This document shows, piece after piece, positions 10,007 through 61,691 of a DNA stretch of 64,000 nt (positions are counted from its first letter, which is position 1; each line of letters begins with the position of its first letter). Position numbers and translations under genes: made by a program. The notes below the pieces were generated by a model. The model searched no databases and was not told where the DNA came from. It worked only from the letters and a program-made list of their open reading frames with translations. The stretch spans positions 15,150,001 through 15,214,000 of the forward strand of contig CM049410.1 in NCBI GenBank assembly GCA_026929865.2. Direction: 5' to 3'. The stretch is from Hyperoplus lanceolatus. Its lineage: Eukaryota > Chordata > Actinopteri > Uranoscopiformes > Ammodytidae.

Positions 10007-10323
10007 GGCCATTCGGTGATCTTTTTGGCGTATTTTCGGACGAAGTTATCCTCACTGAAAATGAATAGTGAGCGGTTGACGGTGAAGCAGTTCTGACGCA
10101 CGGGGATGGGGTTATAGAGGGCCATGGTCCGGGCTCTCTGCGCCATTGACTGCTTGTACACCCGCTGGCCCCCGGGTCCTCCAGGTGGACCGTGTCCGTG
10201 TCCATGGCCGTGGCCGTGTCCGTGGGGCCCTCCTTGCCTGCTCCCGCCGCGGCCGCCGGGGCCCCCTCCGCCGGGCCCCCCGCCGCCGTACCTGGCCGGT
10301 GCCTCATTTTCGAAGCGCGCCAT
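10007..10323 (-). CDS. cacna1a: Cacna1a-like calcium channel alpha-1 subunit, coding exon 1 (partial gene)
   Basis: First coding exon of a Cav2 (P/Q-type) voltage-gated calcium channel pore subunit, a plasma-membrane protein of presynaptic terminals. The exon encodes 105 codons plus two bases. It starts [16 protein letters not shown], passes a Gly-rich stretch and a (His-Gly)6 run at residues 34-45, then the block [20 protein letters not shown] (56-75) and ends in KKITEW, just before helix IS1. YKQSMAQRA and KKITEW fit Cav2.1 better than Cav2.2, which has YKQSIAQRA and KRITEW. The ATG at 10323 is the first in-frame ATG. The exon stops after the first two bases of a Pro codon at an AT-AC donor; reading on without splicing meets a stop 15 bases later. 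All other exons lie left of the window. Family identity is firm; the 1A paralog call rests on these residues and on the 19p13-type neighbours. Confidence 0.93.
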
Positions 10324-23176: not shown

Positions 23177-24119
23177 CTTGAAATCTAACACTTGATGCTC
23201 CATCTAAGAAATTACAATAATCTCCCAAGCAAACAATTAGACCGCAGTTAGTGTTTTTTTTCTAGCTGCATCATTTGCACACTTGGCAGTTGAAAATGTA
23301 GATAAAGAATTTGTCCTGAATATTTTACTTTGAAGGTTTTCACCAGATGTTGGCTGAGTACATTTACAACGAGTGATCACTGCCCTCCAGTGGTAACAGT
23401 AGCCTATATAACTGCAACAGCCAGTGGCATTTCCAGGCCATTTTGACCGAGGTGGCCAAGGTGGGACCTTTATATGTCCATGGGTGGGGCACAGTGGGGT
23501 GGCCATCGCAAACCTAAATTAATGGCATGTGATATGCTTTATAACCAATACAAAAATGATTTATAATCCCAAATCATGTTATTATCCATTGTAGCCTAAT
23601 GTTTGTTTTCAAGACCGGCTTCACACAACCCAGAAGAGTGCTTATACCTGCAGATACAATACTTTCAGTGAGAGGAGTCATGCAAGCCCAAATTCTGGGG
23701 GGAGGGGGGCACAACAAGAGAAGGGACAGGGGTTACCCGTAAAATTGCAGCCCCTCACCCCCTAAAATCGCCACTGCTTAATCCTCAATACGAAATGTAA
23801 AATAGGCTTATGTCACCTTCCCAATGTCAACCTGCATTCCAAAGGACACATGATGATTTAGGGTACAATATCTTGTTAAATTGTTTGTAGCCTACTACCA
23901 TCTTGATATTTAGACAAAAAAAAGAGTCTGAATTCCCGAGAGGGGCCAGGCTACTTTACGTGTTGCGTTTTCGGTTGTAAGACTACGCACCCCACAATGC
24001 ATTGCATTTAAACATGGCGTCTTAGAGAGCCACTTCACAATGTCAACACGACCAAAACGTAGCTAACTACAGTTAAGGACAGTGTAGCGAGACTGACTAA
24101 TAATATTTCAGACAGGAGG
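23177..24119. other. Intergenic sequence upstream of alkbh7
   Basis: No gene seen. A decayed hAT-like fragment lies at about 23427-23776 (CAGTGGCATTTCCAGG ... AAATCGCCACTG). The last 180 bases before the alkbh7 ATG contain CpG dinucleotides and probably include its promoter and 5' UTR. Confidence 0.5.
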
Positions 24120-30500: not shown

Positions 30501-33500
30501 CATTTCTCATCATCCTCACGTGTTTCCGAGTAACTAAAAAATGATTATTTTTTCTATTCACCATCACAATACCCCACAACACGACCTTCCTTCCCTACCT
30601 TCTCTCGTCCCATATTGGTCATACTTCCAATGAATTCGTTTAATCCCTCCAATACCAATCAAAACAGAACAACAGGGCCATGAGCGCTTGAGCAATCCAG
30701 ACAACCTTGAAATCCATTTTCACGCCCCAGACACTGAACCGTGGTGATTCTTGCCCCTAAATTATTTATTCAATTCTCCCCTCTGAACCTTTCCACAGAA
30801 GCAAACCGGGTATTTCAGAGATATTGCCGTTTTAAAATCGAATGCCCGTTCAGCAGGCTCCATAGCTCAGTGGTTAGAGCACTGGTCTTGTAAACCAGGG
30901 GTCGCGAGTTCGATCCTCGCTGGGGCCTAGCTGGTGAGGAGCGTTTTCCTGTGTACAATTGCGAAAGGTATACCTTCTCAAGATTCCATCTTGTTCTTGG
31001 TTTCGGTCTTACCTTTTTATCATAAACTTGTCATTTAACCACTGGGTAGTATTGATGTAAGCAGCATAGTCAAATATATTGTAACTTGTTACTTTAATCT
31101 CATGGTGAATAATTCTGCTCTGCATCTTGGCTTTCCAACAACAGTATCCATATCCGGAAAACTCCTATTCCTCACTATCCACTATCATTCATGCCTATCA
31201 AGCCCGTGCCATAACTTCCAACTCTTCATTGTTCCATCAAACTTCCTTCAACTATCCTCATATTCAGCCCATTTTTCACATTCCGGCTTTCATTCAAAAA
31301 TTTCAGAAAAATTCATAACTTCATAATTAATAAGCAATTAAACCAAAATTATGAAAAGTTTCAAATCTCTTCTCCTCCCTGGGAATTCATCCGACAAACT
31401 TGATACCAGTATGTAACTGTTCAGCATAGTTCAGGCATTAATATTCTGATAAAATATTTTTCATAACATTCATAACTTCAAAGAAATTGAACCATTTATG
31501 AAATTAATATTTCATACAAAATTATGATTCCTCCTACTCGTTCATACTTCATCGTAGAAACTCGATTCAAAGTGTCCCATGTTCGTCTTGCACGGGAGCA
31601 CATTTCCATAATTCACTATTTTTTCATAAAATTCATAACTTCAGAGATATTTTAAGGTTTATTACACCCAAAATCCGTATTGAGAATGCATTAGGAAATC
31701 CACAAAACGCGAAGCGTTTTGCACTGATTTCTAACACTTCAAGCTCACTGATAATTCATCCTACAAAGTTAATTTCTTCGAGAAACAGTTCAGCTATCTT
31801 TCGTCTTTCATTGTTAAAATTCAACCTTTTAAAAAAAAATGCATAGTTTTCAAATTACTCAGCCATGTTTGACGCATGTAACATCAATTTTAGTGATATT
31901 TAGAGTGTGGCAGAGTGGAGGAGAGGGAATAAAAAAGAACACCAGAAATCTAAACGTAAATTGCTCTCAACTCAAAAGTTTTTACATTAAAGAAACACAT
32001 TTGACACTGAATATTAATTGGAATCTTCTGATTCTCAAAATACGATCATTTTTTCTGTCAGACAAACGGTTTGCGAGATATGAGAAGCAGTTTGGGCTTA
32101 TGCGTTCATTTAAAACCTCTGTCTGTGTGATCTGGTTGGGGAGACAAGTGGCCGTACGTGTGTAGATTACCAGCTGTTTACAATTGACACTGATTAGCTG
32201 TCTGTTACCATGGTGACCCCTGAACGTGCACCTGCCTTTGACTCAACGATGACATTATTGGCTAATGTTGGTCAAACTCCAATCCCTTATGCTCCATAGA
32301 GAGGGAGAGGGAGAGAGGGACACACACATTTTAACAGGTACCCCCCCCCCCCATGAGCACATAATGTAACAAATAAATCACTGAATTTTAACACCAGTGC
32401 TGAATAATCTGGCAGAATAATAAAAGGTGAAGTCAACACTGAGGCCTATGTACTAAGTCATTGCAGACAGCAGGGGGGCACTCTCACACACACACACAAA
32501 TTTCCACACACTTACCCACACTCTCATTCACTCCCTTTAGACACATGAACACATAGACTAACTAGAGAAAGAGATGTATGGAGAAATGAAGATTTCTGGT
32601 GTCAAAACATGCCCGTGCATTGTGCATTTTAAATGGGAATGTTGTCCTCTTTTGTTACCGATCATCCTTACATGTTCAGATCCTTCAGGGCATCACAAGG
32701 TAGATCCTGATTGACCTGAAGTCAGGATTCTGGGTTCCTACCTAGTTCCTACTAGAAATTTTCCACTTCTACCGATTTTCGCCAAAATTTGCATACATGT
32801 ACATATTGTTCAGAATGACATTCAAGGCTTGAGGTCAGCGTTCTAATCTTAAAGGTCACTGTACAATCATATTTTTGGTCCAGGGTCTTGGCTCTGTGTA
32901 AACGGTTTTGGCTTCAAGGGCTGTTTGAATGTTGATTCTGACTCAAGGCTGAACTGATTACATTTTGGAGGTCATAGTTCAAGGTCATATTCATTCCTAA
33001 TTCCAGCTAGAAAGTCCAACAAACTTCCAAATATTCCACATTTCTCAAAATTATATTATTCAACCATACTGTGCGAGATTGAGATAAAATTCAATCCCAC
33101 TGGACATGAGTAAACAAACAAAAGTTTGTAGAGTCTGGTTCATCCAAAGAATGTCAGTTATTCAGACTAGTCTGAGGATATTGATGTCCACCGTTGGGAT
33201 TATTGTGCGGAATATTGTTCTGGCTTGATAAAACAATTTGCCTGGAATCAGTCTGCAGGATCGAGGAGCTTTAAGGGAAGAACATTTAGACACAGTATAA
33301 TTTTTCTTTTACATATAACCAGCATTGCTAGTGAATGTAAGAAAATATTGTAAGGCAAGGCACGGACTGAAATATCTCAGCACCTATTGGATGGATTGGA
33401 CCATAGCCATTTTTGGGCTGACATTCAATGTTCCCAGAGCATGAATCCAACTGACTTGAGTGATCCCGACTGTTCCTCTAGCGCTAACATACATTTTTTT

Positions 33501-36500
33501 AGTAAAGTATTGTAAAACTATTTTTGAGTGCATTACAAATATGGTGCAGGCATTCATTGGGTCCCAGAAGATGTATCCCAATGACTTTGGTGAGCTCCCT
33601 TGTTTTGCATAGTGTCACCTTGATATTTGATGGTTATTGAGCTTGCAGTGATTCCCATTTGCACACTGAAGAATGGCGCCTTGTGCGAAATGTTCGGTTG
33701 TGTTAACAAATACATTTATTTACTTGGAGTGCTGACCTTATCTTTATTTTATATTGTTTTGTAGGGAAATATCCCTACAGCATGTAGTTATTTTCCATGA
33801 ATTTACTGTATGTACAGATGGTCATGGCCAGAGGATGACTTGTACTGCCCTGGGGCCTCATTTATAAACGTTGCGTACGCCCAGAAGAGGGCGCACGCCA
33901 ATTTCTAAGCAAATATTGGGATTTATAAAAAACAAACTTGACGGGAGATGTGCGGTCCTCCACGCAAACTCTGACCCATGCGTACGCACAGAAAGTGGAG
34001 AAAGGAGAAACGGCGACTCCGTCGGCACATGTATGAAGTGCGAGAACGAATGTGTTTGTGTAAAATGAATCCAGATAGGCCTATTATAAGCCATGTAGGT
34101 CTATCATATATTGGGAGTTCCTTTGCAAAACGGATGAAGCCATTCTTACAACTAATGATCAAATGCCTCCACGGATTATTCCATGGAGTGATACCAACAA
34201 AAACAAAACGAATTAGGATCTTACATAGCCTACAAACGGAGATAGGCTATATGAGTGCAAATTAAAAAAAATAGCGTTCGAATAAGCTCTGCAGTTAGAA
34301 TAACCTATCTGCATGTTGTGGAATTAATTCTGATAATATTGAGGTGGAATACAGCCTATTACTTTTACACTGACGCTGTTCTCGATGCCTCAGTCAGGCA
34401 GACAGGAGTGCGCTTTTCATACACTAATGATAAGCCCACTGTACATCACATAGGCTACTGTGATCTTTTTCACGACTTTTAGTCCGTTTTATCTATGTTT
34501 TTCTTTTAGTTTAAGCACGTCGCAATTGTGTTTTGAAAGGGACCGTGAAGTTTATTATTAACCCTCCGCCGCCCGCCACTGCCCCGGGATGAATTCTCCG
34601 AATCTGTATCTCATGGGGGTCTCAGTGTCCCCGTTCGTGGCACAAACACTGTTATGTGAGGATATGCACTTGTTTGCGTCCACTTTTATGTCGGATCGCT
34701 TCTTTTTATTTCGGCCACAGCGTTCACAGAACGCCACAGGCTGCACTCTGAGGCCTTTACGCTCACACTGCCACCAAACTATATTTTCCCTGGTCGCCAC
34801 TTCTCCAACGGGTACTTCGGGGTAACTTCGGGGTGACCGCAGTGATCCACACCGTGTGGAGTCTATTTTTCCATTTCCCTTTCAGTCGGCGATTGCCACT
34901 ACCGCCTTCATGCACTCAGTAAATGATATTAATTTGGGCGTGTTGATGACTATGTATGGGTAAATATGGGCGGTACGTGAAGCCCGCAAAGTCTGCGCCA
35001 CATTTAGAGTTGATTGTGATTTATAAAAGGAAACAGGCGTAGGACGTGAGTGCGCACTGTTTTATAAATCCGAATATTTTTGTTCGCACGTACATCCTAC
35101 ATTTCTTCCGTACGCCAGCTTCCACGTGAATCCCACGCAAAGCTTTATAAATGAGGCCCCAGGTCTCTTGAAAAAGAGATTTTAATCTCAATGAGACTAA
35201 CCTGGTTAAATAAAGGATAAATAATAGTAGCTACTATTGCACTAAATGGTAACACTTATGTACGTTATGCAAATACGCAACTTGTTTGTTGAAATGTTAA
35301 TAACTGGGAGCTTCCTCAAGCAGCCATCTCTTTCCCGACAATCCCCTCTGTGCACAAACTCTTACACATGGTAATTAAACATTATAACACCTGCGGCTTA
35401 TAGACCAGTGCGGCTTATAGTGCGGAAAATACGGTATTTACAAACCATTTCCAGGTCTGGAAAAAGTTTACTCAAAATTCATAACTTTTCCAGGGATTTC
35501 ATGACTGTGGGGAACCCTGTAAATGAGAGCTTCACCATATATATTTTCATCCGATATTTCTTAGCGGCATAGACTGGTTTTGTACCTTGAGCTTGGAGTG
35601 GATTTGCCTGATGGTGGCTGCGGTGTACTCTTGCCAGAGGGAACAGGGCTCTGAGTGCTGGGCTCCATCTTCAGCCTTTTGGCAGCTGGTGAGTCTGTGC
35701 CTGGAGCTGGATTCTGTCTCTTACCTGTGGGAATGGTTAGAAATGTTATTGCTTATGATGTCGATAATTGCCTTTGGCTTCATCACAATATGTTGGTAAC
35801 AAGTAGACAATAGTAGACAGCAGTAAAGAAAAAATAAATAAAATCAGAGGCAAAGAACACAGTTCAGTAGGCCTATTGTAAAACACTTCAAAAAAATACA
35901 TTTGCCATGACATGAGTCTTGTTAAAGGTGGAGTCAGCAATCCTGGAGAATGCTTGTTGTCAGTGCTGAAAAACACATGCAGTGTTAATACACAGCCTGT
36001 AAAGGCTTGTTTGTCGAAACGGTGGGCCCCGGTGAGCAATCACCTTGTTCTAGCTTGCTGGCCGCAGCACGCAGCGTACTGGAGGTGGCGGCAGAGTCAA
36101 TGGATGGTGTCCCGGGGCGACTGCCAGTCCGGGAGCTGCCTGCTGAGCCACGCCCACCCGCACGTTTAGGAGGGGTGCGCTTCTTCTGAGAGAGAGAAAA
36201 GACAGAGACATGTTTGATAATAATAATAAAATAAAATCACAACACTACAGAAATGTATATACCAAACATTCACACATTCACTCACAATAAATAAAAAAAA
36301 GCTGCAAAAACTCAACAGTAAGAGCTCCTTCGCTCGTGGGCAGAATTAGCTTTACAGGTAATGAACATCATTTAACTAGATTTGTGTGACATACCCACAT
36401 AATTGCCTCTGAGTAATAGTAAATGTGACTACTAATAAGTAGTTAGTTGTCACATTTATCATCATGACGTTCATTATGCCACAAAATCAAAATAGCAAAA

Positions 36501-39500
36501 GTCAAAACTACAGTAGGCAACAAGCAAATCTCCATGTATACAGTCACACAGACAGTGAGCACCATGAATAAAGCCGAGGCCGTCTCTCCGTCGATGTCGC
36601 TGTCGTCAGAGCTCTCTGATTCTCCGCTGCTGTCTGCTGACACACACATCCATACGACTCAGTAAAAACAGGAGCATCGTTTAACATCGCTGGTGTTTTA
36701 TGAAGATCTCATTCACTTAATGATATACTCAAAATAGTCACCCGGGTGTCTATATGGTTCAGTACCTTTTTTCTTCTTCTTTTCCGCTTGGACCGGGGTT
36801 TTCTTTCCTTCCTCCTCCTCTTCCTCCTCCTTGTTCTCCTCTTCATTCGGTTTCTCCTCCTCACTCTCTTCCTCACTTTCAGACGCCTCGTCAATCCCTA
36901 CGAGGAAAAGGCTAATTATTTGATGGGATATCTCTCAAGGAATCTAAATGGTCATCATTCATAACAATGCTTAAGCCAATAGTAAGTCAAAAACATAAAA
37001 ATGCATCAAAAAAATACACTAATTTCATTTTCAAAGGTGGAGTCAGCAATTCCAAATCAGTGAATATCTCCTCACAATCCGCTACCTGTCCATTCTGTGT
37101 GTGCGCTATTAAAAAAAAATCCAGTGTTATTACACAGCCTAGGATCTGTACACCGGCATGTTGCAAGCTACGTTGGGTCCTTTTGTTGACATATACCTTG
37201 TTTACATACCAGTTTACAGAGTCTAGGCTGTGTATCAACACAAACAGTACGGGCAGGTAGCGGATCGTGAGGAAATATTCACTGATTTTGAGTGTACTCT
37301 TGACTGGCTGACTCCACCCCTAAGTAAATGCAATCAGTGAGTATTCTTATTTTACTAATGTCATGTGGCGGTGATGCGGTGAGGAGTAACACACACAACC
37401 AACATTTTGAAAGTGCTCATACTAATATATGCATGAATAATCAGCGTTGTTTGAGTATTTCATACTGAGTAATATTTAACTAGAGATGGTCTGACCTTTA
37501 GGCATGTCCTGTCCTTTGTTTATTTTGCCCTTGTCAGGCTCTTCGTCTGAACTGGTTATTTTTTTGGGGGAAAAAGGACATTTTGGTAAAAAAATCACAA
37601 CAGATATATATATATATATATTTTTGTCATGTGGTAACATTAGATAGCGAGTCTGTTTGTGCGTAAAAGGCAACTTATCTGACCTGCTTTCATCTGACAT
37701 GTAGTCCACCTCCAGACCCTCGTAGTCCCCGTCATCGCTGTCCTCCAAGGCCTCTTCGTTGCTCTTCCTCTTCTTCTTCTTTCCTTTTCCTTTGCCCGTC
37801 TCTTTCTTTGCCTTCGTCTTGCTCTCTCCATCTGTCCAGTAAAAGTGGTGGTGAAAAAAATAAAAATAAATCACAGGATGACAAGAAATGTTGACGGGTG
37901 TATTTTACAATACTCCTGTTTAAGTGGCTGCTTTCTCTGTTTTTGACCACTCTTTTGAACTTAGTGATACTGGAGAATGCTAGTTGTCAAAAGATTTTGT
38001 ACAACAAGCATTCTCTATAATCGCTGACTCTATCTGCAATACGTTTGTTTGGGGGGGGGGGGGGGCAACAGTCAAGTATCTTCCTCTCCATCAAGTGAGT
38101 CTCTCCATACCGTCGCCCATGCTGCCGTCACTGTCGTCGCTGCTCATCTCCAGGTCGTCCTCCAGGTCAGTGATGCGCAGGTCTCCTCCTCGGCCTCCTC
38201 CTCCCTTCTTCTTCTTCTTCTTCCCAGACTTCTCTCCCTCGTCATCGTCGTCCCCGCCGTGCTCCTGCTCCCGGAAACGCCTCTGGAGCATAATGCTGAA
38301 GTGATTCACCACCTTGTTCCTCCTGTTAACGGGCAAAGGGGAAATACGTGTTTGACGTAAACTGCACCAGTTCAGTAAACAAAAGTACATCCTGCATCCA
38401 CACTATTCATATTTTACTTTAGTATTACCATGTAAACATCTGGTCAATGATTGTATTCCTTTGTGATTTCTATTATTTTCTGTACATATGACATCGATTG
38501 CATGATGTCCGTCCTGGGAGAGGGATCCCTTCCTCTGTCAACTCTCCCCGATGTTTCTCAACTTTTAGTGTAGAAATCAGAATGCTTTTTTTGGCGATTC
38601 TGACCCACAATACACTGTGCTGCGGAGGTAACGTCACATCGACTGAGCCACAGTGTGAAAACAACCAGCGATGCAACGGAAATATAAGCAAGAGGAGGCA
38701 AGTTCAAGGCGCGTTGTTATAAATAAATAATTAAGTAAAAGTATGTCCCAAATGTATTGCCTATCCTCACTGCATAGTTTGTATGTAGAATAGTAGAAAG
38801 AAGGAGTATTCGATTTGGAACACAGGGACACCGTTTGTTTTTTTCATCACCACAAACAGCCAATCATGTGTGCCCGTTCCTCCCATGTCTCACCTGCCCC
38901 ACTCCTCCTCGGCCTCCTCAGCGGTGAGAGTCCGGTGTTTTGACAGTGGTATGAAGTTGTACCAGCCGTGGACCGGGAAGGCCTCAAAGGCTCCGTCGGG
39001 ACACTGTGTAAAGATGTAGTAGGATGCGTTTTCTGTAACTCCGCCCTTCTTTTGACCTTTGAACCTGACACAAACAAACACACAAATGGAGGGAGAATGT
39101 AGCTGTGGTGGAAAACAGTAGCGATCACCCATATGGCCTGCATATACGGTCTTAAAAAGGTGGAGTCAGTGATTCTGGAGAACGCTTGTTGTCAAAATCA
39201 GTGATCTGCTACCTGTCAGTACTGTGTGCAATAAAAAAAATCCTCTGTTGATACACAGCCTAGGCTATGTAAACAAAGGGGCCACTGTAACTATATGCCC
39301 CTAACCAAGGCTGTGTATTAACACTGGATTTTTTCAGTGCGTATACAAAGTACAGACAAGTAGCAGAGTGTCAGGAGATATTCACTGATATCGACAAAGA
39401 GTGATTTTGGCAACACGTCCAGAATTGCTGAATTGTTTTAATACAAATGTAGGTATTGAAAACTGTGATAAGGATTTATAGATTTTAGGAAACTGACAGA

Positions 39501-42500
39501 GATATATGTTAATAAGAACAACAGTTTTGGTTACATCATAAGTAGAGTATGTGAAAACGAGAGTGAATCTGAGTGTAAAGAATAAGTCTGTCCCACCTCT
39601 TGCCACCCTTGCCGTTGACTTTGAGGAGCCAAGGCTGGTCCTCCGTTTTGAACTCGCGTTTCACGATACCATACTTCTTCCGCCGCGCTTCCTCACGCTG
39701 CTTTTTGCCAAACTCACTGCCGGCCGCGCCATCTGCTGTCTCTTCCTCCCCAAAGATCCGCCGGGCGCTCATATCTCGCTCCATTCGAGCCTGGATTGGG
39801 AATTTAAATGTTAAAACTGAAAGATGGTTGCTATGGCCTCTTACTTCATTTTAAAATTTCAGATTATCTTTATTCTGTTAATCTAAGGGTAATCACAATG
39901 GTTTGTCACTCATTGAGTTCAGGTCATCATCTAACCCAGGGGTGGCCAACCCGCGGCTCGCGAGCCGCATGCGGCTCTCCAATTCATATCAAATTATGTG
40001 ATTATAATTTTTTATTTATTTTTTTTATATACTTTTTTTTTTTGTGTGGGCCTATGTGTGTGCATGTTCGCAAACGTTTCATGCGGCTCTTACGTTCGTT
40101 TTACATGTTATCTATTATTTCATTTTTTATTTTATTAATGTGTAGGCCCTATGTGTATGCCTGTTCGCAAATGTTTAATTGAGGACGCAACATAACGTTC
40201 GCAAACGTTTGGTGCGGACGCAACATAAAACTGCCCGCTCAGCTTGGAGGGAGGTTTTCCGTGAGTAAACTATTTGTGTCAAGTTCGCTCCGAAACAGAG
40301 TGGGAGAGTTCATATTTTTTGTTGAATGTTATGCCAAGCCATTCTGCCTTATTGCCAGGTGTCATTTGCGCAGACCCGTCGCCAGACCTCAGTCTTAAGG
40401 GGGGCATATGAAATGCATAGGGGGGCACAATTATTATTAGCCTATAGTACGTATATTTTTAATAGTCCTATACTCTATTCGCGCAGCACGTAATCATCAC
40501 GTTAAACTAACCAACAGCGGTAGCCTATAGCCTACAACATCAGTCCTCATAATTCATAATTTAAAGCAATACATTACATAGAAGCAATGTTATGAATATT
40601 CATAAAACACTTGACTATTCAACATATTAGACGTAGCCTAACACCAGACGCATATCTCAAACATTGCATTTTAAAGCAGTCAACAGAGGGATATGCATTG
40701 CCATCACACACACACACACACACACACACACCACACCACACACGCACACGCACACGGTAGCCTACTTTGAGTGGAGGCAGGGCTGTGCTCTCTTCAGTCC
40801 CTTCTATCAGTACAGCGGGAGGCGGCGTTTCTCCGAGCTCAACCTCCTCATCAATTTCGGCCTCCGGGTTCAAAGCAGCCAGTGCGCCAATGAGCTCGCT
40901 ACTGCGCTCTCCAAAACGCGCATCCATCTCTCCTTGCACAGCATCAATAACACTGTAAAATACTCTTGAACTCAGTCTTTTCGTCTATGTCACTTTGTGA
41001 CGGACCAACTGTTTCCTCAACTGCAAATCCGCGGAGGTTCTTGTAAATTGTGCGTCTTCTCTTGCTTGGACCGGGGTCGGTCTCCGGCACAGCCTCGATG
41101 GCCGTGGCTGGAGGAGCGCAGAGTTCCCACAGTGCAACACTGTGGCTTCACGCAATCAGAAGTGTCACCGCGCTGAACAAATCCATAATTTCGGATTGTA
41201 GTCTGTCATGCGGCTCGCAAAGTGACAACAGTTTCACGATCCGATTTGGCAGAGGAGACTGTTGGTGGGCTTTTCAACCGTTACCGAATATCGATTATGA
41301 TGAACTAGAAATGAAATAGTAAGCCGGCAAAAACTCATCCAGCTTCTCTTTCAAAAATGCGCGGTAACTGTTGAGCGGCTGCATTGACGTATTACGTAGG
41401 CCTACGTAGCCTTACTTTCTTTTCAGTAAGGCCGTGATAAGCTGTTGCAGTGTAGATAGACTCCCATCAATCAAACAAAATCACACCATTGTTTATTTAT
41501 ATTTTAAATGTTTTGATGATAAAGAATGCAACATTAGTATTTATCAACACAAAATGAGCTACTATGATGGTATAAAATAAAAATTAAAATATTTTTTTGA
41601 GAGATGTGCCCCAAGTGGGGGGGCACAACCATTTCTGGGGGCGGGCCCGGCCCCCTATGGCCCGCCCATAGCGACGGGTATGCATTTGCGCATTTCAAGG
41701 CTTCAAATCTGCAGCGCCACTTCAGCTCTCTCCATGCTACAAGTAAGTCCCACAAAGCAACATGCATAGTAAGAGAAAAACGCTATTTTAAATTGTTATA
41801 TTTTTGTTTGTGGACTTGGTTGAACTGAGAGTTTGTGTGTGAGGCAGTGCACACAATGTTCATTGTTGAAAATGACTGCCCTGTCGTCTTTAGTCCAGTC
41901 CTGTCATTATCACAGGGGCGGCCTTAACGATCTGGGGGCCCGTTTCAAGTCCTAGTGTGGGGCCCCCTTTTTTTTTTTTTTTTTTTTTTTTTAATAAATA
42001 ATGCTTGTGCATGCATGTGCAAGCTCCCCGAAAAAAATAAAAACGCCCCCCGTGCCCCCCCCCCGTTCAAATGTTATTTTTTATTTTCATTTTATTTTTT
42101 TAATTACATTTTTTTCCTGATATGTATCCTAGTTCAGAGATGATATGTATTTTTTTTTTTTCTTAACTTTTTTTGATAGGTAGTTGCCAAGCATCACACA
42201 AACACTCCAATCCACTGATATGAGATCAGTTTGCAATTTTCTATTACTAAATTAATGGTAGGACTGTGGCCACTAGAATTGGTCTCTGGTCAGCAAAGGT
42301 CTTGAAAACAGCATAAGTGTGCTTGTGACATGCGTGCCACCCATGCATGTGTATACGCACGTGTCCCAGCAGATTTTTGAAATCTGAATAAACAAATTAA
42401 AGTTTGTAGTTAGCGAGTGTAACATGTTCTTAGCAAGGGCAGACTTTCATAAATAAAGGTTTATTTTTTTAGCAAGATATTTGGTCAAAAGCTAGTGGTC

Positions 42501-46747: not shown

Positions 46748-47384
46748 ATGAACTGCTGTGCCTTCTCACTTCTCCTGGGTGAGTACATTCATTTTTCATA
46801 AAGCTAATAATGTGGAACAATGTATTAATTTAACTAAATTACACTTAAAAATATCTTAGAGTAACCCTGCTTAGGCTGCACAATTATTTTAATATCGAGT
46901 GACGGACAATAGTGATACTCTAAATACATTGTCTTACATAGATATTTATATACCTTCTAATTGAAGGCAATGTTAGAAACATTTGGTTTTGCACAGTTTT
47001 GAAAAAAAATACTGTATGTTTATATTTTGATGCTCAAAATGTTGTTATAATGCACATTATGTTGTTATAAATGCTGTTGTAATGTAGGCTTTTTACATAC
47101 CTTTAAGCCTACATGTGTCTTGTTTATTTATTGTAAGCAATATCATCAGCACCCATTCAGCATTAAGTTCATTTCTGTGATAGTCTCACCAGTATTATCT
47201 CCAAATCCTTTTTAAATGATTTGAAAATATTTAAAGAAAGTAGTGAAATGTTGTTGCTATGCATAAAGGGTACCTTTTTTAAACAAATGACATACTGTAT
47301 ATATTTTTATAGACAATAACTCTTCTGGGTCTTTGTCCTTTACAGGTTCTCTCTTCATTCCCGGCCACTGTGTTTTCCCTGCCG
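46748..47384 (+). CDS. Receptor exons 1-2: signal peptide
   Basis: MNCCAFSLLLGSLFIPGHCV is a short hydrophobic leader. Cleavage is likely near residues 19-23, just before the first D8C cysteine. Both exon ends are phase 1. Confidence 0.8.
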
Positions 47385-50300
47385 GTATGGATGACATTGA
47401 CTTGAACACATCATTTAGATTGTGGTTATAAGTGAAATAACAGTCATTTGGTGTTCATTGATATTTATAATGCATTTTGTTGGTCCATGCAGGTTCTTGT
47501 GATGGTTACACAAACTTAACACAACCATGGCGCAACTATTTATTTACATCCACTACCTATCCCGGCTTCCCACAAAACGACTTAAACCTTGTTGGGAATT
47601 GGTGGCGCTTCACAGGGGTTGGCGGAGACAGAGTTGTTAATTCCTGCAATGGGCCCAATCGTGCCGGTGCTAGTTACAACGTGCGTTATGTATCTTCATA
47701 TCCAACAACTGAATCCGTAACTCCATATGCAGGAACTGCATATGGTGATACTGGACAGTGCAATAATTATGCTATTTCGGTGAGTGTGCTCCTCTGTCCT
47801 GGAGGATTCTACATATACAAACCAGCATCTCACCCACATCCCAACATGGTTTATGCAATCTGTAAGTAATGATTATTCACTGTCATCCTTTGATTTATTT
47901 TCTCAAACGATGTACAGCTTACTGCAGTGTGTGTGTGTGACCATGTACATGTGTCTTTGTATCCGTTTAGATCATTATGACTGTCAGGCAGACTCCTGTG
48001 GACCACTTGCTGAGTGTTCTGGAACCGGAGGGTGTGTTTGTATCTCTGGGTATGAAATCCCACCAACCCACTTCCCCATTTCAGACTCATACGGGTGTGT
48101 TGGTAAGTATATTTATTTAAACTGAACTGTAGTCAGTGCTGATACTGTATATGTTACAACAGCTATTTTAAAGCACATGAGAATTTACTACAGTGTATCA
48201 TCTCTCTTCTTTTGCTTTCATGTATCTCTTTACAGATATTGATGAGTGTCAGGCGACTGCAGACAATTGTGGCCCCTACTCAGATTGTTTTAACACCATT
48301 GGGGCATTCAACTGTACCTGTCAGGATGGATTCGATGCAACAAATCCAGAATTACCGCCTGACGGGTCCAACAAATGCCAAGGTAGCATTTTAAAAAAAA
48401 TGTCGCCCTTCACACTGCCAATCTTGTATTGCAATACTATTATTGTGTTTAGGCTAACAGACATGTTAAGACTCCAGATTATTTTTTTCTGCTCCTTTAT
48501 AGATATTAATGAATGTGATGAAAACGTGTGCGGTGCCGATGGGAGCTGCTACAACAGCGTAGGAAGTTACCGGTGTAAATGCCATACAGGCTACCAACTG
48601 TTACCACACCAAACTCCTGAATGCCAAGGTCTGCTCACAGTTATGTTACACATCAGCATATCAAGTCAACACTAGGTTTTATTGCATGGTCTCTAAGCTA
48701 TTACCACATTAAATGTTTTATTTGCCAGAAATATTTTACTCATCAGCTAAAAAAAATATATTTTTAAATAATTTTTCTACTGAAGAAAATACAAATTATT
48801 GTATTGCACTGACCATTGCTGGCATGCACATCAATACAACTATAAGGTAACTGAAGTTCAAATATGTATCCTTTAGATCTTACACAACGTTGTGTCAGCT
48901 GGACACAAGCGGCTTACAAACCCAGTCCCTGTAAAAAAAAAGATTGACCACTGATTCAATGTGTTCTTCACCACACACCCCAGTGAATGACTTGAACTGA
49001 GTTTTACAATGCACCTACAGTTAAATCATTCGAGTATAAGGTTTTAAGTCAAACTCACGCTTCAGTGCTTTTGTTTTGTAGTAAAATGACCTTTTACACA
49101 TTGGATTTTGTATATATGTCAGGCCAAGTGTGTGTTACTCGTACTGCAGATATCGATGAGTGTTTCAACTCCACCGTCTGCGGCCCTGACTCGGATTGCA
49201 CCAACACACCTGGAGCTCACACCTGTGCATGTCAAGTCGGCTACGCGCCCACTGAACCAGACCAGGAACCCAGCGAGACCAACATTTGTATCGGTATTGG
49301 AATGTTTAGTTTTTTAAGATGCAAGGTGTTTTCCAGTCATCTAGAAGTAGATGGGAAGCTGCAGTTCTATTGCAACTTGCAAGAGAGGTCGACACACAGT
49401 CATACACAAAGCTATCTGGTGTTTAGCTTCAGTGCCAACTTTAATCTTCCAAACTCTACCTGTAACTGTTTTACCTAACTATATTGTACTTTCACACGTC
49501 ATATTCATTGCAGCCATTATACATAACTTGTTTTAATTTTTGAAATTGGCTGTTTAGTAATCGTAATGTTTCCCTTTGTTGTTGTTTTTAATTTGCATGT
49601 TTGTTTTTTCTACTTTACATAGTTTTGTTTTTGGCTGGACGTCATTGGAAATGAGGGTCAGCTGTCATTTATCTCTTGGGTATAAATACAAGTTGAATGA
49701 AATTACTCATTAATGTATATCATGTGCTTGGCAGATGTTGATGAGTGTGTCAAAGATGCTACCGTATGCGGCCCCGATGCCAACTGCACAAACTCAATCG
49801 GATCGTACATCTGCACCTGTTTCTCTGGTTTTCGGCTGGACAACGCAGGGGTGATAGCCAGTGTTGCTAACCCATGCACAGGTATGAGCCCCTGTTCACT
49901 AATAATGTGAGTTTACTCAAATACATCTCACTTTTACGTGCTTTAATTGTGTGCTTTCTCTCTCTCTCTCTCTCTACAGATATAGACGAGTGCAGTGAGA
50001 CACTTGGTATTTGTGGCAAACAAACGGTGTGCACTAATGTACCAGGGACCTTCCATTGTTCTTGTCCAGATGGATTTTTCCCTACCACTGGAATCCTGTG
50101 GACGTTGGGGGTCTCATTTTGTCAAAGTGAGCTGAGGATGCATTTGGACACAGTCTATACAATACAGCACACTGCCATAATCCTTGTGTTCTAAATGATT
50201 TTTCTTTTGTCATTTTTCTCCTCACAACCGACTCAGATCTTCAGCAGATTTTAGATGAGATACCAGTACCAGAGGTAAATATAACCAGTCAAGTGACACC

Positions 50301-51395
50301 GTCAAGGAAAAAACATATTTATAAGAGCCAACCAATTTTGCAAACACTACGACATGAGTAAGATAATATCCACAATATGGCTAGAATGTAGCAACAAGTG
50401 GCCGTCTTGCAGGTGTCTTTGTGTCATTTTGTGGACAGATCCCAGTTACCCGTGGGAGAAGTTAGTTTCCCTTTCAAATGACCCATGCCTCAGTCAAATC
50501 GACTTCTTGTCAATAGTGGCACTGTTGAGTTGATTTTATATGGGTAAACAGCTAGCAACATTCACCACACACGTACACACTAAGGCACCACACTCAAAAT
50601 TAGGGGTGGGAAAAATAATCGATTCTTCGATGCATCGCGATTCTCTCTAGACCAATTCCGTCTCGATTCAGGTGCCAAGATATTCCCACCCCAATCAAAA
50701 CCCATCAAAATGTATGTGGGCATAGGTGACGATGTTACAGTTTTTAAACTTTTTCATGATGGACAAATTTTCATACAATTTCGCCAAATACATTATATCA
50801 AAGTTTAAACACCATACACTGCCCACTTCATTCCAGCTTTAAACTTTGAAAATTGAAGTCACGTTTGTGTGTTTGTCGCAGGGACAGACAAAAGAGAGAG
50901 CTTTCCTTGGCAGCATGGACCAACAACTGAAAGACAATGCAGGCCTCATCTTACCAGAACCAGTGAGTAGAGAACAGCAAGATCAACCAGTTAAAAGCGG
51001 AGTCAACAATTCTTGAGAACTTTTGTAGTAAAATATTTTTGTCAAAATCTGTGAATATCTCCTCACGGTCTGCTACCTGTCTGTAGTGTGTGTGCACTGA
51101 AAGAAATTCACTGATTTTGACAAAAAATGTGTTTTGACAACAAACATTCCCCAGAATGATTAGCTGATTTCCACCTTGAAGCTCATTTTCTTAAAGTGTG
51201 CAGAGCTAATTTTGCATTAACTGTAAATGAATTCGACCATTACATAATTATTTGCCTCTCCTCTTGTTTCCTTGTGCCTTCTCCGCAGACGGTGGCCAAC
51301 AGCTTCTCAGCATCTATGGTATCACTGTAACTGTGTGGTCTGTTCGGGGGGTTTAGGCTTTAATACAACTTAGTGTGTCATCAGTTATTGAAGTA

Positions 51396-51433
<38 letters not shown>

Positions 51434-54400
51434 TCTTACAGGAAGTGTCAGGTGTTGGAAAACATTCCAGGTCAGTCAGGGTGGGTAGTGAAGGAGACGG
51501 GGCGACCGGCAGTGTGATCCTGGGCATCTCAGACCGTTTAGTGGCTGCAATGGTGCAACCAGGTCAGAACCACACCAAGACACATTTGCAAAGTTCAGTA
51601 GTGGGTAAGAAACATTGATCTTGGTTAATTGTACAAATTTACTTTGTGAGGTGGATAAAATAACAAGCTGTTCCATTGGGTGTCCCGTGTGTTAGATTTA
51701 AGTCTTGAAACGTTCGGGCCTGGAAGCGACAACGCAGAGAGCTCCACTCTCTCAGCCAAAGGAAACACCATGGAGATCAACCTGGAAGGTCTGGCCCAGA
51801 ATAACAATGGTGAGAAAAAGGTCATGATGAAAAAAAGTATACTATACTAGCAAAAAAACTGAAAGGTACAGCTGATTGTGTGGAGATTTATTAACTGATT
51901 TTGACAAAAAGTGACGTTGACAAAAAGCTTTCTCCAGAATCGCTGACACAGATAGGTGGCTATAATATAAGGCAAGGCAAGGCAAGGCAATTTTATTTAT
52001 AGAGCACATTTCAGGCACAGGGCCACTCAAGGTGCTTCACAGGGTTAAAATCAAATAAAGAATACAAATACAAAAAAAGGAACACATTTAAAACATGGAT
52101 AAAAATACAACATTTAAATAAAAGAATTAAAACATTTTACAAAAAAAAAAAAAAATTACAGGTTAAAAGGGAAACAAGAACGTTTTGAGACCCGATTTAA
52201 AAGAGCTGAGAGTCTCAGCGTACCTCAGACTCTCTGGCAGTCCGTTCCAGACATTGGGCGCATAAACGCTGAATGCCGCCTCTCCCTGTTTAGTCCTAGC
52301 TCTGGGGACTTTTAAAAGACCTGTCCCAGACAACCTAAGGGCTCTGGGCGGCTCATAACGTATCAGCAGATCAGTAATATATTTTGGCCCTAAACCATTT
52401 AAGGCTTTGTAGACCATCATCAATATTTTAAAATCAATTCTTTGAGTGACAGGAAGCCAGTGCAAAGACCTAAGAACTGGGGTAATGTGATCTACTTTTT
52501 TGGTCCTAGTGAGGACTCGACCAGCATAATATAATATAATATATATGATGTGAAATGGGGTATGGCAACTCTGGTGTGGTATAGTTTCAAAGTGCCGATG
52601 TCCTGAACTGTGTGGACACTTGCCCAGGTTCTGCAGCAGCTGGCTTCTTGACATTGACTGGGATGGATAGTCTCCTCAGTCATCAATACTTTCAATCAGA
52701 AAACGTGACAGAGATGTACTCGGATGTCATCACTGCAGTCTTGCCCACCATGAACAACACCAACCTCACAGAGCCTGTTAACTTCACCATCCATCACAAG
52801 AAGGTGCAGCTCAATCTATGCATCTGTCTACATTTCGAAATAAATATTTTCCAAGTTAAAACACGTCTTTCTTTCTTTTAACCTATCCATAACTCTGCGT
52901 TTTTTCTGGTTTGATCAGACATTACCTGAATCTGGTTTTGTGACCTGTGTCTACTGGGAGGACAAAACAGAGAAGACAGGAACAGGAGAAGGGGGTGTAA
53001 CAGGTGGCGTAGAAGAGACCCAACCTATGCATTGGTCGGTTGACGGCTGTGTGGTTGCATACAGCGATGAAAACTACACCGTGTGCAGTTGCTCTCATCT
53101 GTCCACGTTTGCCCTCATCATGCAGATTGGGGAGGTATAATAGATTGTGTTAATGTCAGGGGTGTAACAATACACGTATTCGTACCGAGCCGTCACAGTA
53201 CAGGCACTTACAGGTTGTTCCAGAGGTGAACCGCAATCCGTAATTACGACGTAAACCGCGTTAGTATGGCGTAAATATGCATAATGTACAGGTTTGTTTT
53301 GATTGCAGTGCAGAACTTGTCCTTTTATTTGAGAAGGACTTCCTTTATTGGATAACTTGGTTGTTTGCAGCAGTATTTCTTTTTTCATACTGAAAAAACC
53401 CTATTATCTTGAATTGTAGTTAATGCTGCACTATTTGAGAAGAATTGTATTTATTGGAGAACTTGCAGTATTCTTTATAGCTATAGTTAAAAAATATATA
53501 TATATTTTATACATTTATTTGTGAGTTTCATTTAATTCAAAACAATTGCTGAATCTCTGACAGCAACATGTTTAACTGTCATTGTTTTACTAATTAAACT
53601 CATGTCCCTTATTACAAACAAACAGTTTTTTGCATTTTTCCTCTGAACCGAACTGAACCCAAACAGTGACTTCAAAACCGAGATACGTAATGAACCGTGA
53701 CTTTTGTGTACTGTTACACCCCGAGTGGATGGGAATTTGCTTAAACAGATGCCATCAACCCCCAAAGTCAGGTTGATCAGAGTATGTGTTAACCTGTGTG
53801 TTTTTTCTTTTTCAGCCTCCACCAGAAAACACATTTTTAGATTGGCTTAACCAAATTTGTGTGATTGTGGGACTCTTCTTCTTCGCGTTGGCCATCCTCA
53901 CTTTCCTCCTGTGTACCTGGAACCCCAAGATCAACAACACGGCCCGTCTTCACCTCTGCCTCAACCTCTCCCTGTCCCATCTACTGCTGCTGTTTAATGA
54001 CAGCTATCTTGAAGACGAGGTACAGTATGAGACTAAGATGCGGTCTGTTTTATTCTTTCAAATCGACTTAAACCTATAGTGTGTAATTTATGTCACCCCC
54101 ATGAGGAATTATGAGTAATTACAACAACACCTTGTGTGCGTGTGCATGGATTATAATGCATACCTTCTGCTGTGCATCAATTTTTTTTACTTAGCAGTAG
54201 AATCAGCAATTGAAAGATTTATTTGGGACCCTTCTTACTGGCGCTTCTTTTTCTGAGCTCCTGCACCATTGTCGGTGGGGTTGACACCATGAAGAAAAGT
54301 TACGCACTATAGCTTTAAAGGGATCTCACAACCATGTATTTGGTGTAACCCAGCTGAACATAACTATTCCTTATTGAGTGTGTTTCCAAAGGTTTTTTTT

Positions 54401-56800
54401 CATTGTTTTCAAGGAAACTCTTATGTGTCTCCACAGATGGCCTGCACTGCCTTGGCCGGGCTTCTCCACTTCTTAGTCATTGCAAGTTTTGTGTGGATGC
54501 AGCTGGAGGCGCTGCAGCTCTACCTGTTGGTCCGAATGCTCTCCAAGGTTCAGGTCATCCAGAGAGACGGCCTCCCCAGGCCAATGCTCTACCTGATTGG
54601 CTACGGAGTTCCATTTGTGATCGTGGGCGTATCTGCTCTGGTATATTCTGATGGCTACGGTGCAACTGGCGGAGTGGCGTGAGTAGGACAAACAGTAATT
54701 AGTGCACACATTGCCATTCTCCTGTATGCCCGATGTGTATCTGCATGGGAATTTGTACAAATTGTGTTTTTGTCTTATTCTGTTGTAGGTGCTGGCTATC
54801 TACGCAGCGCAACTTTAACTGGGCTTTAACAGGCCCCGTGGTCGCTATCCTTGGAGTGAGTATACTGCATATAAATGATTGCAACCCATCCGCTATAATG
54901 AAAATGAAAATACAGAAAATCAGTTCAGCCTGGTATGCTCTCTAACTATAACATGTCTCTTGCAGGTCCCTCAATGAATACTTATTGAATGTGGCTGAAT
55001 CCAGTAAAAACAATTAATAAACAAAGATATGAAAAAAGGGGAGGGGTTAGACACTGCATAGAAAGTGTGCATTGAAAAAGTGATGCAGTGTTAGGCCAGG
55101 AAGTTTGTTCTGTATGTATGTGTGATAAATGTCTTAGGGGAGATTATTAATGCACATTCCTCTTTTGTGTTGCCATTTGCCATCAAGTAAACGGAAAAGG
55201 GCATAAAGAGTTGCGTAATAGTTGGAGAAAGTCTGGGTAGTTAATCTACACATTGTTTGCTAATTAGCAAGCTTCTCGTTAGCGAGCACATGGGACACAA
55301 TTTGTTCTTTCCCAGTCTTCGCTATTAGCCTCAACTCATATGAAAGATATTCTCTTTTCTATGAATTTCCATGTTTTTTTACAAAGGCTTGTTTGTTTGT
55401 TTTTACAAGTAGAATTGTAAGTTTGTGTGAAGATCTTTCAAGTTATTTTTTTCTTTTTTTAAGCCAAAATCCTGTGTTTTTTTTTTCATGAAGCTCAACT
55501 GGATATTGTTCTGTGCTACTCTATGGAGTCTAAGACCCACCTTGGCCAGCATGAAAAGTGATGTTTCCCAATCCAAAGACACCAGGTATGAACTAGGAGC
55601 GTTCAATATTGTTTTAGCTTGAAAATAAAAATTCCAGTCTGGATTACATTGTAACAACAGAAGTGCTTGTTTCAGCAAAGGTTGAAGGTCACACTACATA
55701 ACAATATATCATAGACTCTACATGATGATGATTTAAATTTGATGTTGTAATTCAAATGTATATAGAGTCAAGTGTAAAATGTACTCATACATTAAAGAGT
55801 GTCCAATGAGAGGGATGTTGGGTGATAGAAGTTGATATGGACCCATGTTATAGTTGGATTACGGTTTAAAAGGTGGTCACAGCCAGATTTAGATTTGCCC
55901 TAAAGTGAGAGTTGGGACAATTTACAGAAAGGAAACAGTCACTTTGTCACATTTGTATCAAATGAATAGAGGAAGTGACAACATTATCACAGTGCAAAAA
56001 ATACTCTGCCCAGTAGTCATCCATTTTTCAACATATACTATACATGACATAAAATAATGATAAACTTGTTCAATTCTCATTGTTTACAGGCTGATTGTGT
56101 TTAAGATCCTGGCCCAGTTTGTCATCCTGGGCTGTACCTGGATTCTGGGACTGTACCAGTCAAATCTCTTCTTCCGGGTCCTCTTCATAATTCTAAACTC
56201 CCAACAGGGCACCTTCCTTTACATCGTCCACTGCCTGCTCAATAAGGAGGTAGCCTTCAGCTTGATCAATCTCCTCATTGATACTATTGTAAAACAATGT
56301 CAATCTGCATTTGTTAAAGATATTAGCTACACTGATGTCTAACCTATCACTTTTTAATTGATATTTTGATATTGTATGTTGCGTTATGGCGATGACGTAG
56401 CATTGCTTTTGGTGTAAAGGCCTGATTTGTATTTTTATCTGTTTTTTCATTTTGTCGGTTTATTTGTATATGTTGAGCATTGACATTTTGATTTGTACGA
56501 TCCAGGTGCGAGAGGAGTACATAAGATGGCTGACGTGCTCTTGTGGAAAAGACAGAGAGGTGGTGAGTCCCAGGAAACAAATAATATAATCACAAGCAGC
56601 TCACTCCTCAATGTAGCAACAATTTAAAATTGCAGTACTGAAACTTTACATTCATTACTAAATATCTCTTATATATTTAGCGTGTTTTACTGTATATCAA
56701 TACTGATCCTAATAATTTATTTCAGGAGAAAGATGCACATTCGATCTCTGAGGATTGGGACAAGACTGAGCAACAGACAGACAAGGGAAAAAAGAACTGA
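46748..56800 (+). CDS. ADGRE/CD97-like adhesion GPCR with D8C and EGF domains (23 coding exons)
   Basis: Complete 998-residue receptor; all introns GT-AG. Exons: 46748-46778, 47346-47384, 47493-47861, 47971-48102, 48236-48382, 48503-48628, 49150-49293, 49735-49881, 49980-50126, 50237-50274, 50882-50962, 51289-51318, 51442-51604, 51696-51809, 52628-52803, 52919-53134, 53816-54019, 54437-54678, 54789-54855, 55494-55585, 56090-56249, 56506-56562, 56726-56800. Domain order: signal peptide (1 to about 20), D8C-like domain (about 25-150), six EGF-like modules (about 150-427), GAIN with GPS cleavage site HLS|T at 690/691, seven helices (about 708-955) and a short charged tail. Family B2 marks are present: WSLRPTLASM, the C-CWL disulfide pair, and QGTFLYIVHCLLNKEVREEY. 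It is likely a leukocyte or epithelial surface receptor by analogy with CD97/EMR. Paralog name left open because ADGRE members expanded separately in fish and mammals. Confidence 0.95.
47493..47861 (+). CDS. Receptor exon 3: D8C-like domain
   Basis: A single exon encodes SCDGYTNLTQPWRNYLF, then NLVGNWWRFTGVGGDR, NSCNGPNRAGA, and CNNYAISVSVLLCPGGFYIY. The C..Y..L..PWR, WWRF.G.GG and VLLCPGGFYIYK pattern with paired cysteines matches the D8C domain of uromodulin and GP2. The usual HPT-type segment appears altered. NLT is a potential glycosylation site. Confidence 0.75.
47971..50126 (+). CDS. Receptor exons 4-9: six EGF-like modules
   Basis: Exon 4 encodes a non-calcium EGF (CQADSCGPLAECSGTGGCVC). 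Exons 5-9 each encode one calcium-binding EGF starting DIDEC, DINEC, DIDEC, DVDEC and DIDEC. Every exon is phase 1-1, so modules can be skipped or duplicated without shifting frame, as in CD97/EMR genes, where alternative EGF use sets ligand choice. Confidence 0.93.
50601..50692. mobile_element. 92-bp miniature hAT relic
   Basis: Ends TAGGGGTGGGAA and TTCCCACCCCA; flanks CTCAAAAT and ATCAAAAC agree at 6 of 8 bases. It is a tiny relative of the element at 62367-63090, in a receptor intron. Confidence 0.65.
50882..53134 (+). CDS. Receptor exons 11-16: GAIN domain and GPS
   Basis: The stalk and GAIN region ends in the GPS: CVYWED ... HWSVDGCVVAYSDENYT, VCSCSHLSTFALIM. The four GPS cysteines, paired Trp and the HLS|T scissile site are all present, so autoproteolysis is expected. 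The tethered peptide would start TFALIMQIGE. Confidence 0.92.
50991..51178. mobile_element. Fold-back MITE, copy 7 (receptor intron)
   Basis: Left TTAAAAGCGGAGTCAACAAT; right TTAGCTGATTTCCACCTTGA, with ATATCTCCTCACGGTCTGCT shared with other copies. Confidence 0.75.
51399..51428. repeat. (TA)n microsatellite
   Basis: About 15 TA units just before the acceptor of receptor exon 13. Confidence 0.9.
51866..51950. mobile_element. Fold-back MITE, copy 8 (right arm only)
   Basis: Right-arm text ACTGATTTTGACAAAAAGTG ... TCTCCAGAATCGCTGAC; the left arm is missing. Confidence 0.65.
51969..52525 (-). mobile_element. L2-like LINE 3' fragment in receptor intron
   Basis: On the minus strand the frame reads VDHITPVLRSLHWLPVTQRI then DFKILMMVYKALNGLGPKYI, and ends APNVWNGLPESLRYAETLSS then FKSGLKTFLF, the C-terminal end of an L2-type reverse transcriptase. 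The 3' tail ends in (GCCTT)n, seen on the plus strand as AAGGC repeats at 51969-51989. 5'-truncated and antisense to the host gene. Confidence 0.9.
53157..53723. mobile_element. hAT-like non-autonomous element in receptor intron 16
   Basis: Left CAGGGGTGTAACAATACAC; right end, on the opposite strand, CGGGGTGTAACAGTACAC. CGTATTCGTACCGAG and GAGATACGTAATGAACC are subterminal. No target duplication could be confirmed. Confidence 0.7.
53816..56800 (+). CDS. Receptor exons 17-23: seven-helix domain and tail
   Basis: TM1 is within ICVIVGLFFFALAILTFLLC; TM2 RLHLCLNLSLSHLLLL; TM3 CTALAGLLHFLVIASFVWMQ; TM4 LYLIGYGVPFVIVGVSALVY; TM5 GPVVAILGLNWILFCATLWS; TM6 FKILAQFVILGCTWILGLYQ; TM7 FIILNSQQGTFLYIVHCLLN. 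The tail is about 40 residues, rich in Glu, Asp and Lys. Confidence 0.94.
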
Positions 56801-60390: not shown

Positions 60391-61691
60391 TAGGGGAGAG
60401 TGGCCTAAGTTGTGCATTTTGGAAGTTGTGCCACCCCTTGTTTCTAGAAAACCGTGGAAGAAATTGGAAATGTGACCACATATTTAAGAAGAGCCATCCA
60501 TTTGACTCATCCTGTAAAGAAGGGAGACACAAGGAATAAGATATAAGCACATTTAAGCTAAAAAAACTGTGTTTTGCCTTTCAAAGTAAAATTTATATGA
60601 TCAAGGTTTTTTGATTATTGTGTCTGAACAATTATAGACAAGTTTGAAAACATTTGACACATGTTATAGTGCTTTGGTATGCTACATTTTGAGTCTATAC
60701 AGTTAGCACGATGTCAGCCCTAAATTGCTGCATCATGCTTATTATCCAAATTTCTGGGATTGGGGTGATTTGTGCCAAAGGGCCTGTGTGAGTTATAAGT
60801 AAGTAAGTAAGTAAAATGTATTTATAAAAGCACATTTATGACAGTTTGCACTGTCCAAAGTGCTGTACATAGTGCATTCAGTAGGTAAACAATGAAGGTA
60901 AAATAACAATAACCAAAATAAAAGACGTAAAGCCCATACATCCACATAAACACAGATAGTAGTGCAGAGGTAAGATAGTTCATGGGGAGGAAACACCAGG
61001 GTGTACATATGGGTTTTGAGCCTTGATTTAAAGGCAGAAATGTAGAGGGAATCACATTTGTCAGGTGGCAGTTGGTTCCACAAGCACGGAACAACTAGTG
61101 CAAAGTACATTTCTGAGAGTTGTGCCAGTGGCATGGCTGTATACGCTGGTCACCAAAAGAAAGTGATTGTCTACAGTAGCTCAGAAGAGAGTGACATCTC
61201 AATTCCACTTAACGACACCACTGATGAGAGTTCAGATGGCCAGAAAGATGATGATGGTGACTTTGTCTTTGTGAGCTTTGCAGGTAAAACCATTAGATCT
61301 GCTAGGCCTTGTTTAATAAGAAAATTGTCCTTCAATCTTTGTCAACTATTTACTTTATTTACTTTAAATACACCTTAAATAAGTGATTGTCTAATGGAAA
61401 TGTCTTGCATTACAGTTTATGAGATATATATCAATGGCACAATTCACCCCATGATATTCTCTCCAACCGCACAACTTACACCACACCGGGGGCAAGTTGT
61501 GCATCAAGAAAACTTTTTTTCTGAAAGCTATATTTCTTCAACAGTTTATTCCAGATCCAAAGTTTTTATTTCCAGGGATGCACAACACCCTGAAATATAT
61601 GTACATATTTAAGTTGGAGACTTTACTGTCAAGGCCTTACTTTAAAGTCACTTTGAGTGAAAAGTTGCACAACTTAGGCCACTCTCCCCTA
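60391..61691. mobile_element. Chimaeric DNA transposon carrying a LINE tail, copy B
   Basis: Ends TAGGGGAGAGTGGCCTAAGT and its complement at 61672-61691. The body is the reverse complement of copy A (22057-23176), including the LINE tail (about 60796-61135, minus strand, starting from the ACTT repeat) and the acidic ORF fragment. It keeps about 200 bases that copy A has lost. Flanks read TATA on both sides, compatible with a TA target. Confidence 0.85.
61130..61378 (+). pseudogene. Transposon ORF fragment of unknown family
   Basis: The part beyond the LINE junction reads AVYAGHQKKVIVYSSSEESD, then ISIPLNDTTDESSDGQKDDD and GDFVFVSFAGK. The acidic linker followed by a DFVxVxFAGK-like end resembles transposase C-termini, but I cannot assign a family. 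Upstream residues of the same frame are merely antisense LINE. Confidence 0.5.

Follow-up and report, generated by a model that had tools for sequence, protein, structure and literature searches.

Mammalian EMR/CD97 receptors begin, to our knowledge, directly at their first EGF module (EGF1), and the question raised by this locus is whether a fish receptor of the same type carries an additional D8C domain in front of its EGF array. The initial annotation had proposed such an arrangement between positions 47493 and 50126, coordinates that mark exactly where exon 3 starts and exon 9 ends in an intact ADGRE-type adhesion GPCR gene. This gene lies on the + strand at 46748-56800 of the window, the term used here for the whole 64,000-nucleotide stretch of Hyperoplus lanceolatus DNA that was analysed. 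Working from splice sites and phase, we predicted 23 exons encoding 998 residues in a frame without stop or frameshift, closed by a TGA read from the sequence at 56798-56800; the intact frame across 23 exons rules out a pseudogene. The ATG opens exon 1 (46748-46778), which starts a presumed signal peptide recognised by eye (MNCCAFSLLLG), and the remainder of that peptide (...LFIPGHCVFPAG) is supplied by exon 2 (47346-47384, phase 1-1). Every junction from exon 1 to exon 9 is in phase 1, and insertion or skipping of exons in this region is therefore possible without any change of frame. At the other end of the gene, the splice model assigns exons 22 and 23 (56506-56562, 56726-56800) to the C-terminal tail. 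We favoured splicing to exon 22 (VREEY...) over readthrough of exon 21 into a stop close by, given the similarity of VREEY to the CD97 tail.

To identify what exon 3 (47493-47861) encodes, its 122 residues were searched with phmmer against 177,635 distinct PDB sequences. Four of the five matches at E<=10 were to GP2 (8.6e-8 and 9.7e-7) or uromodulin (UMOD; 3.8e-6 and 4.8e-6), the fifth being a dehydrogenase at E 1.1. The GP2 match covers query residues 2-120 of 122, with identity at 34 of 114 GP2 residues. Smith-Waterman scores were 127 against GP2 and 111 against UMOD, compared to maxima of 64 and 61, respectively, across 2000 shuffles of the query. A two-sequence profile built from GP2 and UMOD was then run on the 2186 ORFs of at least 20 aa in the window, with 2156 ORFs from the reversed window as the control. 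Exon 3 scored E 1.7e-11, the runner-up window ORF 0.46 and the best reversed-window ORF 2.1; together, the shuffle and reversed-window controls rule out a chance match. At the sensitivity of this profile no second D8C-like ORF was found among the 2186, and no second copy of the receptor was seen within the window.

A profile search had been suggested as the check on the D8C assignment, and its outcome was divided. Pfam PF23283 (D8C_UMOD) gave E 0.023 and 15.3 bits on exon 3, under the 27-bit cut-off, and was absent from the families at E<=1 in a Pfam scan of receptor residues 1-901, while the phmmer matches, the shuffles and the two-member profile were all significant. Since the curated profile is sub-threshold, the homology rests on the direct comparisons with GP2 and UMOD. 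By sequence, exon 3 is a D8C/D10C-family domain, and the proposal that a whole phase 1-1 exon encodes such a domain before the EGF array stands on this homology and on the splice phase. A single-sequence AlphaFold2 model of exon 3 alone reached a mean pLDDT of 32.5, not good enough to support a fold search or to confirm the D10C fold, and NCBIfam, which is prokaryotic in scope, had no family matched by exon 3 or by the N-terminal 190 residues. Relatives of exon 3 were also looked for in viral and prokaryotic contig collections, where little is to be expected, and none was confirmed among 7 pattern matches in viral contigs and 26 in genome contigs.

The cysteines of the domain are strongly reduced. 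According to the available passages of PMC8930769, the D10C disulfides of GP2 are C1-C8, C2-C9, C3-C6, C4-C10 and C5-C7. D8C/D10C domains have eight (ten) conserved cysteines, and exon 3 keeps 4 of the 10, a point on which the initial annotation was silent: residues C26, C75, C113 and C125 correspond to C1, C3, C6 and C8 of GP2. On the residue map these make up exactly two complete GP2 disulfides, C1-C8 and C3-C6, with the remaining three missing both partners; the chance of obtaining two full pairs from four random cysteines of ten is 0.048. Positions C2, C4, C5, C7 and C9 are replaced, and C10 falls one residue beyond the aligned segment, where the receptor has Ala. The only cysteines ahead of residue C26 are residues C3, C4 and C19, all inside the presumed signal peptide.

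The same passages of PMC8930769 tie eight non-cysteine GP2 positions (D61, P62, R74, D86, W92, R94, V163 and Y164) to UMOD disease mutations. Five of the eight are identical in exon 3 (R74, D86, W92, R94 and Y164) and V163 is conservatively changed to I, while D61-P62 precede the aligned segment and read G24-S25 on gap-free extension. With the core positions at which mutation damages UMOD mostly kept, the fold of the exon 3 domain seems constrained. Among the known systems closest to it, the GP2/uromodulin decoy module (PDB 7p6r and 6tqk, described in part of PMC8930769) shares with exon 3 the C1-C8 and C3-C6 pairs and the core residues R, D, W, R and Y. UMOD also has an EGF module after its D8C domain, as the receptor does (PMC7737619, in the text available). 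The two systems differ in that GP2 and UMOD have 10 cysteines, a beta-hairpin, the N65/N275 glycans and a ZP polymer carrier, whereas the receptor has 4 cysteines, none of these other features, and a 7TM carrier.

These differences bear on the description of the head as lectin-like in the initial annotation, which has to be turned around. The GP2/UMOD domain is a bait, in that its high-mannose glycan is recognised by the bacterial lectin FimH (PMC8930769, available passages), and the positions of the bait glycan are lost here. GP2 N65 is G28 in the receptor and UMOD N275 is K133, which rules out a retained FimH-binding glycan; the only sequon in exon 3 is N31, three residues past the N65 position. 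Nor does the gene encode the beta-hairpin half of that module, exons 1-2 supplying the presumed signal peptide only, and the receptor thus has neither the N65/N275 high-mannose glycan nor the hairpin of a FimH decoy module. Loss of the FimH-relevant glycan positions makes it unlikely that the domain acts as a FimH-type decoy as such. Rather than being a lectin, the D8C head probably binds proteins or presents glycans, and it could display a glycan at the predicted site N31. Its putative ligand may be a protein, possibly one belonging to D8C/ZP filaments, or may come from a microbe.

The remainder of the gene agrees with the ADGRE identity given to it at the outset, and the receptor is of the ADGRE (EMR/CD97) type as assigned from best-match scores rather than from a tree. 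Exon 4 (47971-48102) encodes EGF1, which has six cysteines, is without the DIDEC calcium motif and aligns to EGF1 of CD97/EMR2. It is followed by five calcium-binding EGF modules (PF07645) in exons 5 (48236-48382, with DIDEC at residue 191), 6 (48503-48628), 7 (49150-49293), 8 (49735-49881) and 9 (49980-50126), and this order of an EGF1 without calcium motif and then EGF_CA is that of an ADGRE array. The Pfam scan, which covered the first 901 residues of the 998, returned EGF_CA PF07645 at 1.7e-39 in 5 stretches, GPS PF01825 at 6.9e-9 and 7tm_2 PF00002 at 7.8e-31. When exons 4-6 were searched together against the PDB, they matched ADGRE5 (9mqr, 2.4e-25), NELL2 (2.1e-16), EMR2 (2bo2, 4.3e-14) and ADGRE5 again (7do4, 1e-13), with fibrillin and Notch also among the EGF matches, and the receptor EGF1 aligned with EGF1 in the ADGRE chains. 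EGF1 begins at chain residue 9-10 in the matching ADGRE5 and EMR2 chains, which is in line with mammalian receptors starting at EGF1, as had been claimed, although constructs can be trimmed.

Exons 10-15 (50237-50274, 50882-50962, 51289-51318, 51442-51604, 51696-51809 and 52628-52803) are assigned by the splice model, and by ADGRL3 matches spanning the region, to a linker and the main part of the GAIN domain. An ORF on the - strand at 52166-52675, without a Pfam hit, overlaps intron 14 and resembles the 3′-terminal part of a non-LTR retrotransposon. Exon 16 (52919-53134) contains the GPS, with HLSTFALIM at residue 688, a canonical HL/S cleavage site (HL/STFALIMQIGE) and the tethered agonist. 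The 7TM region occupies exons 17-21 (53816-54019, 54437-54678, 54789-54855, 55494-55585 and 56090-56249), as judged from PF00002 over the scanned part and from matches to ADGRE5 and ADGRE1. For the whole post-EGF part the best PDB match was ADGRE5 (2.8e-38, 135.3 bits), with ADGRL3 at 131.8 bits over a longer match that includes GAIN. Against PDB chains that are mostly 7TM, the receptor scored 123.3 bits with ADGRE1, 113 with ADGRE5 and 88.4 with ADGRL3, and by these scores its secretin-like 7TM is closest to ADGRE members. Mammalian ADGRE proteins (EMR1-4 and CD97/ADGRE5) thus have in common with this receptor the EGF1 plus EGF_CA array, GAIN/GPS and 7TM, and the receptor differs from them by the extra D8C-type exon before EGF1. 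Apart from the D8C exon, placed after the presumed signal peptide and ahead of EGF1, the predicted gene encodes an ordinary ADGRE receptor.

ADGRE receptors undergo autoproteolysis at the GPS, exist in a two-chain form and are activated by a tethered agonist upon strain on the N-terminal fragment or its shedding. We consider it fairly probable that this is an EMR/CD97-type receptor whose slimmed-down D8C/D10C head serves as the ligand-binding tip, and that it is activated by pulling via the tethered agonist. A D8C/D10C module would have been added between the signal peptide and EGF1 as a phase 1-1 exon. The receptor would be cut at HL/S within GAIN and, going by ADGRE biology, its two chains would remain non-covalently joined. 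The head, six EGF modules out from GAIN, would form the ligand-binding tip; its outermost position makes it the part that a partner would most probably touch. A surface-bound partner, such as a glycoprotein, a mucus component or a bacterial adhesin, would engage the head and then pull, and straining or shedding of the N-terminal fragment would allow the tethered agonist STFALIM to activate the 7TM. In a bolder version, a lineage of EMR-like receptors on immune or mucosal cells would have made a sensor out of the UMOD/GP2 bait domain: the type of head that UMOD, GP2 and omcins direct at microbes would stand on an autoproteolytic GPCR, and an adhering microbe or endogenous D8C/ZP filament would pull it and trigger the tethered agonist. 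This version seems doubtful to us.

Exon 3 may also be a genuine D8C homologue that acts as nothing other than an inert spacer or folding cap, with the ligand bound by the EGF array. This is how CD97 binds CD55, and EGF1-EGF3 of the receptor do resemble those of ADGRE5/EMR2. Loss of the decoy-module hairpin and of the FimH-glycan positions from the D8C domain would fit an inert role as well. Against this, exon 3 retains most of the core residues at which mutations harm UMOD, pointing to a constrained fold, and a module distal to EGF1 would be the most exposed part of the protein. We regard the inert spacer as possible but on the unlikely side.

Exons 2, 3 and 4 are all joined in phase 1, so that a transcript lacking exon 3 would stay in frame and encode an EGF-headed isoform like those of mammals. 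The exon is 369 nt long, phase 1 in and 1 out, with borders tgcag/GTT and TCT/gtaagt; the frame used has 0 stops, compared to 4 and 6 in the other two + frames. On a small leave-one-out score its acceptor is equalled by 2.2% of background AG sites, whereas its donor is middling, with 22% of background intronic GT sites scoring equally high and 5 of the 21 other donors (those of exons 6, 7, 15, 18 and 21) scoring worse. The splice sites of exon 3 are acceptable, not exceptional. If the exon were usually skipped, the main receptor would be EGF-headed as in mammals and the D8C form would be minor. The frame would survive such removal, and the non-consensus exon side of the donor (TCT/GTAAGT) and its middling score would favour it, but the donor reads GTAAGT on its intron side, few background sites match the acceptor, and both the reading frame and the fold residues of exon 3 are intact. 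Habitual skipping therefore strikes us as improbable, though with in-frame skipping possible the D8C head may be a splice-controlled option. The idea that the signal peptide and D8C exon belong to a separate secreted gene misjoined to the receptor gene downstream is very improbable: the D8C/D10C domains known so far are otherwise those of secreted or GPI-anchored proteins (passages of PMC8930769 and PMC11415648) and the exon 3-exon 4 junction is predicted from splice sites and phase, but exon 3 runs with no stop into a splice donor, is followed by a 109-nt intron to the phase-matched EGF1, and is the only D8C-like ORF that the GP2/UMOD profile picked out in the window.

Returning to the D8C-headed receptor as the preferred reading, two groups of zebrafish proteins offer further close comparisons. 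The emr-like genes emrl1-14 (PMC4335454, in part) are likewise EMR-like receptors that have expanded in a fish; the main text of that article, its domain figure aside, does not contain the word 'uromodulin', and some zebrafish emrl proteins may carry the same head. The omcins, which are UMOD/GP2-like, have D10C domains followed by EGF in a fish protein, as here (available text of PMC11415648). Omc5 differs from the 7TM receptor in having a ZP module, five D10C domains (a number that varies among omcins) and a predicted GPI anchor, and omc5 mutant zebrafish are more susceptible to bacteria, according to the same text. 'Uromodulin' is likewise absent from the main text of PMC8584163, and neither it nor 'D8C' occurs in the first 300,000 characters of PMC13197933; the passages available from PMC10235609 and PMC11797068 contain nothing on a D8C-headed GPCR architecture. 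Across the titles, abstract starts and passages of the open-licence PMC literature, subscription papers aside, we found no earlier description of a D8C-headed GPCR. As far as that literature shows, an ADGRE with a D8C head represents a novel pairing of domains within a receptor family that is itself known, although existing automatic fish gene models may already contain exon 3.

The extracellular modules of adhesion GPCRs largely set their choice of ligand, and with an EMR-like receptor bearing a D8C-type head the family would gain a new candidate ligand-binding module. Such a receptor would also join two systems of host-microbe contact, the UMOD/GP2/omcin decoys and the EMR/CD97 receptors. 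Since the exon 3 domain falls below the Pfam cut-off, annotation by Pfam only would miss it, and the fish expansion of EMR-like receptors may therefore hide more heads of this kind.

Exons of three other protein-coding genes were recognised in the window. An N-terminal exon of CACNA1A, the P/Q-type calcium channel alpha-1A, lies at 9994-10347 on the - strand (PDB 8x90, 1.6e-37), an ORF with an ALKBH7-like exon at 24063-24416 on the + strand (PDB 4qkb, 1.5e-6), and exons of GTF2F1 (TFIIF alpha) at 35988-39850 on the - strand, where PF05793 was found in four ORFs, one of them at 26.6 bits against a cut-off of 27.1. All of these exons are upstream of the receptor gene. In the human genome ALKBH7, GTF2F1 and ADGRE1 are near one another at 19p13.3, with CACNA1A and ADGRE5 further along 19p13, and the neighbourhood of ALKBH7 and GTF2F1 resembles human 19p13.3, the home of ADGRE1. 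This gene content makes it very likely that the locus is a vertebrate one, and the small introns and microsatellites of the window fit a fish. Repeat copies in opposite orientation, at 22528-22770 (+) and 60796-61149 (-), encode a near-identical peptide (LCTTICVYVDVWALR...). The window further contains a tRNA-Thr (TGT) gene at 30855-30929 (+).
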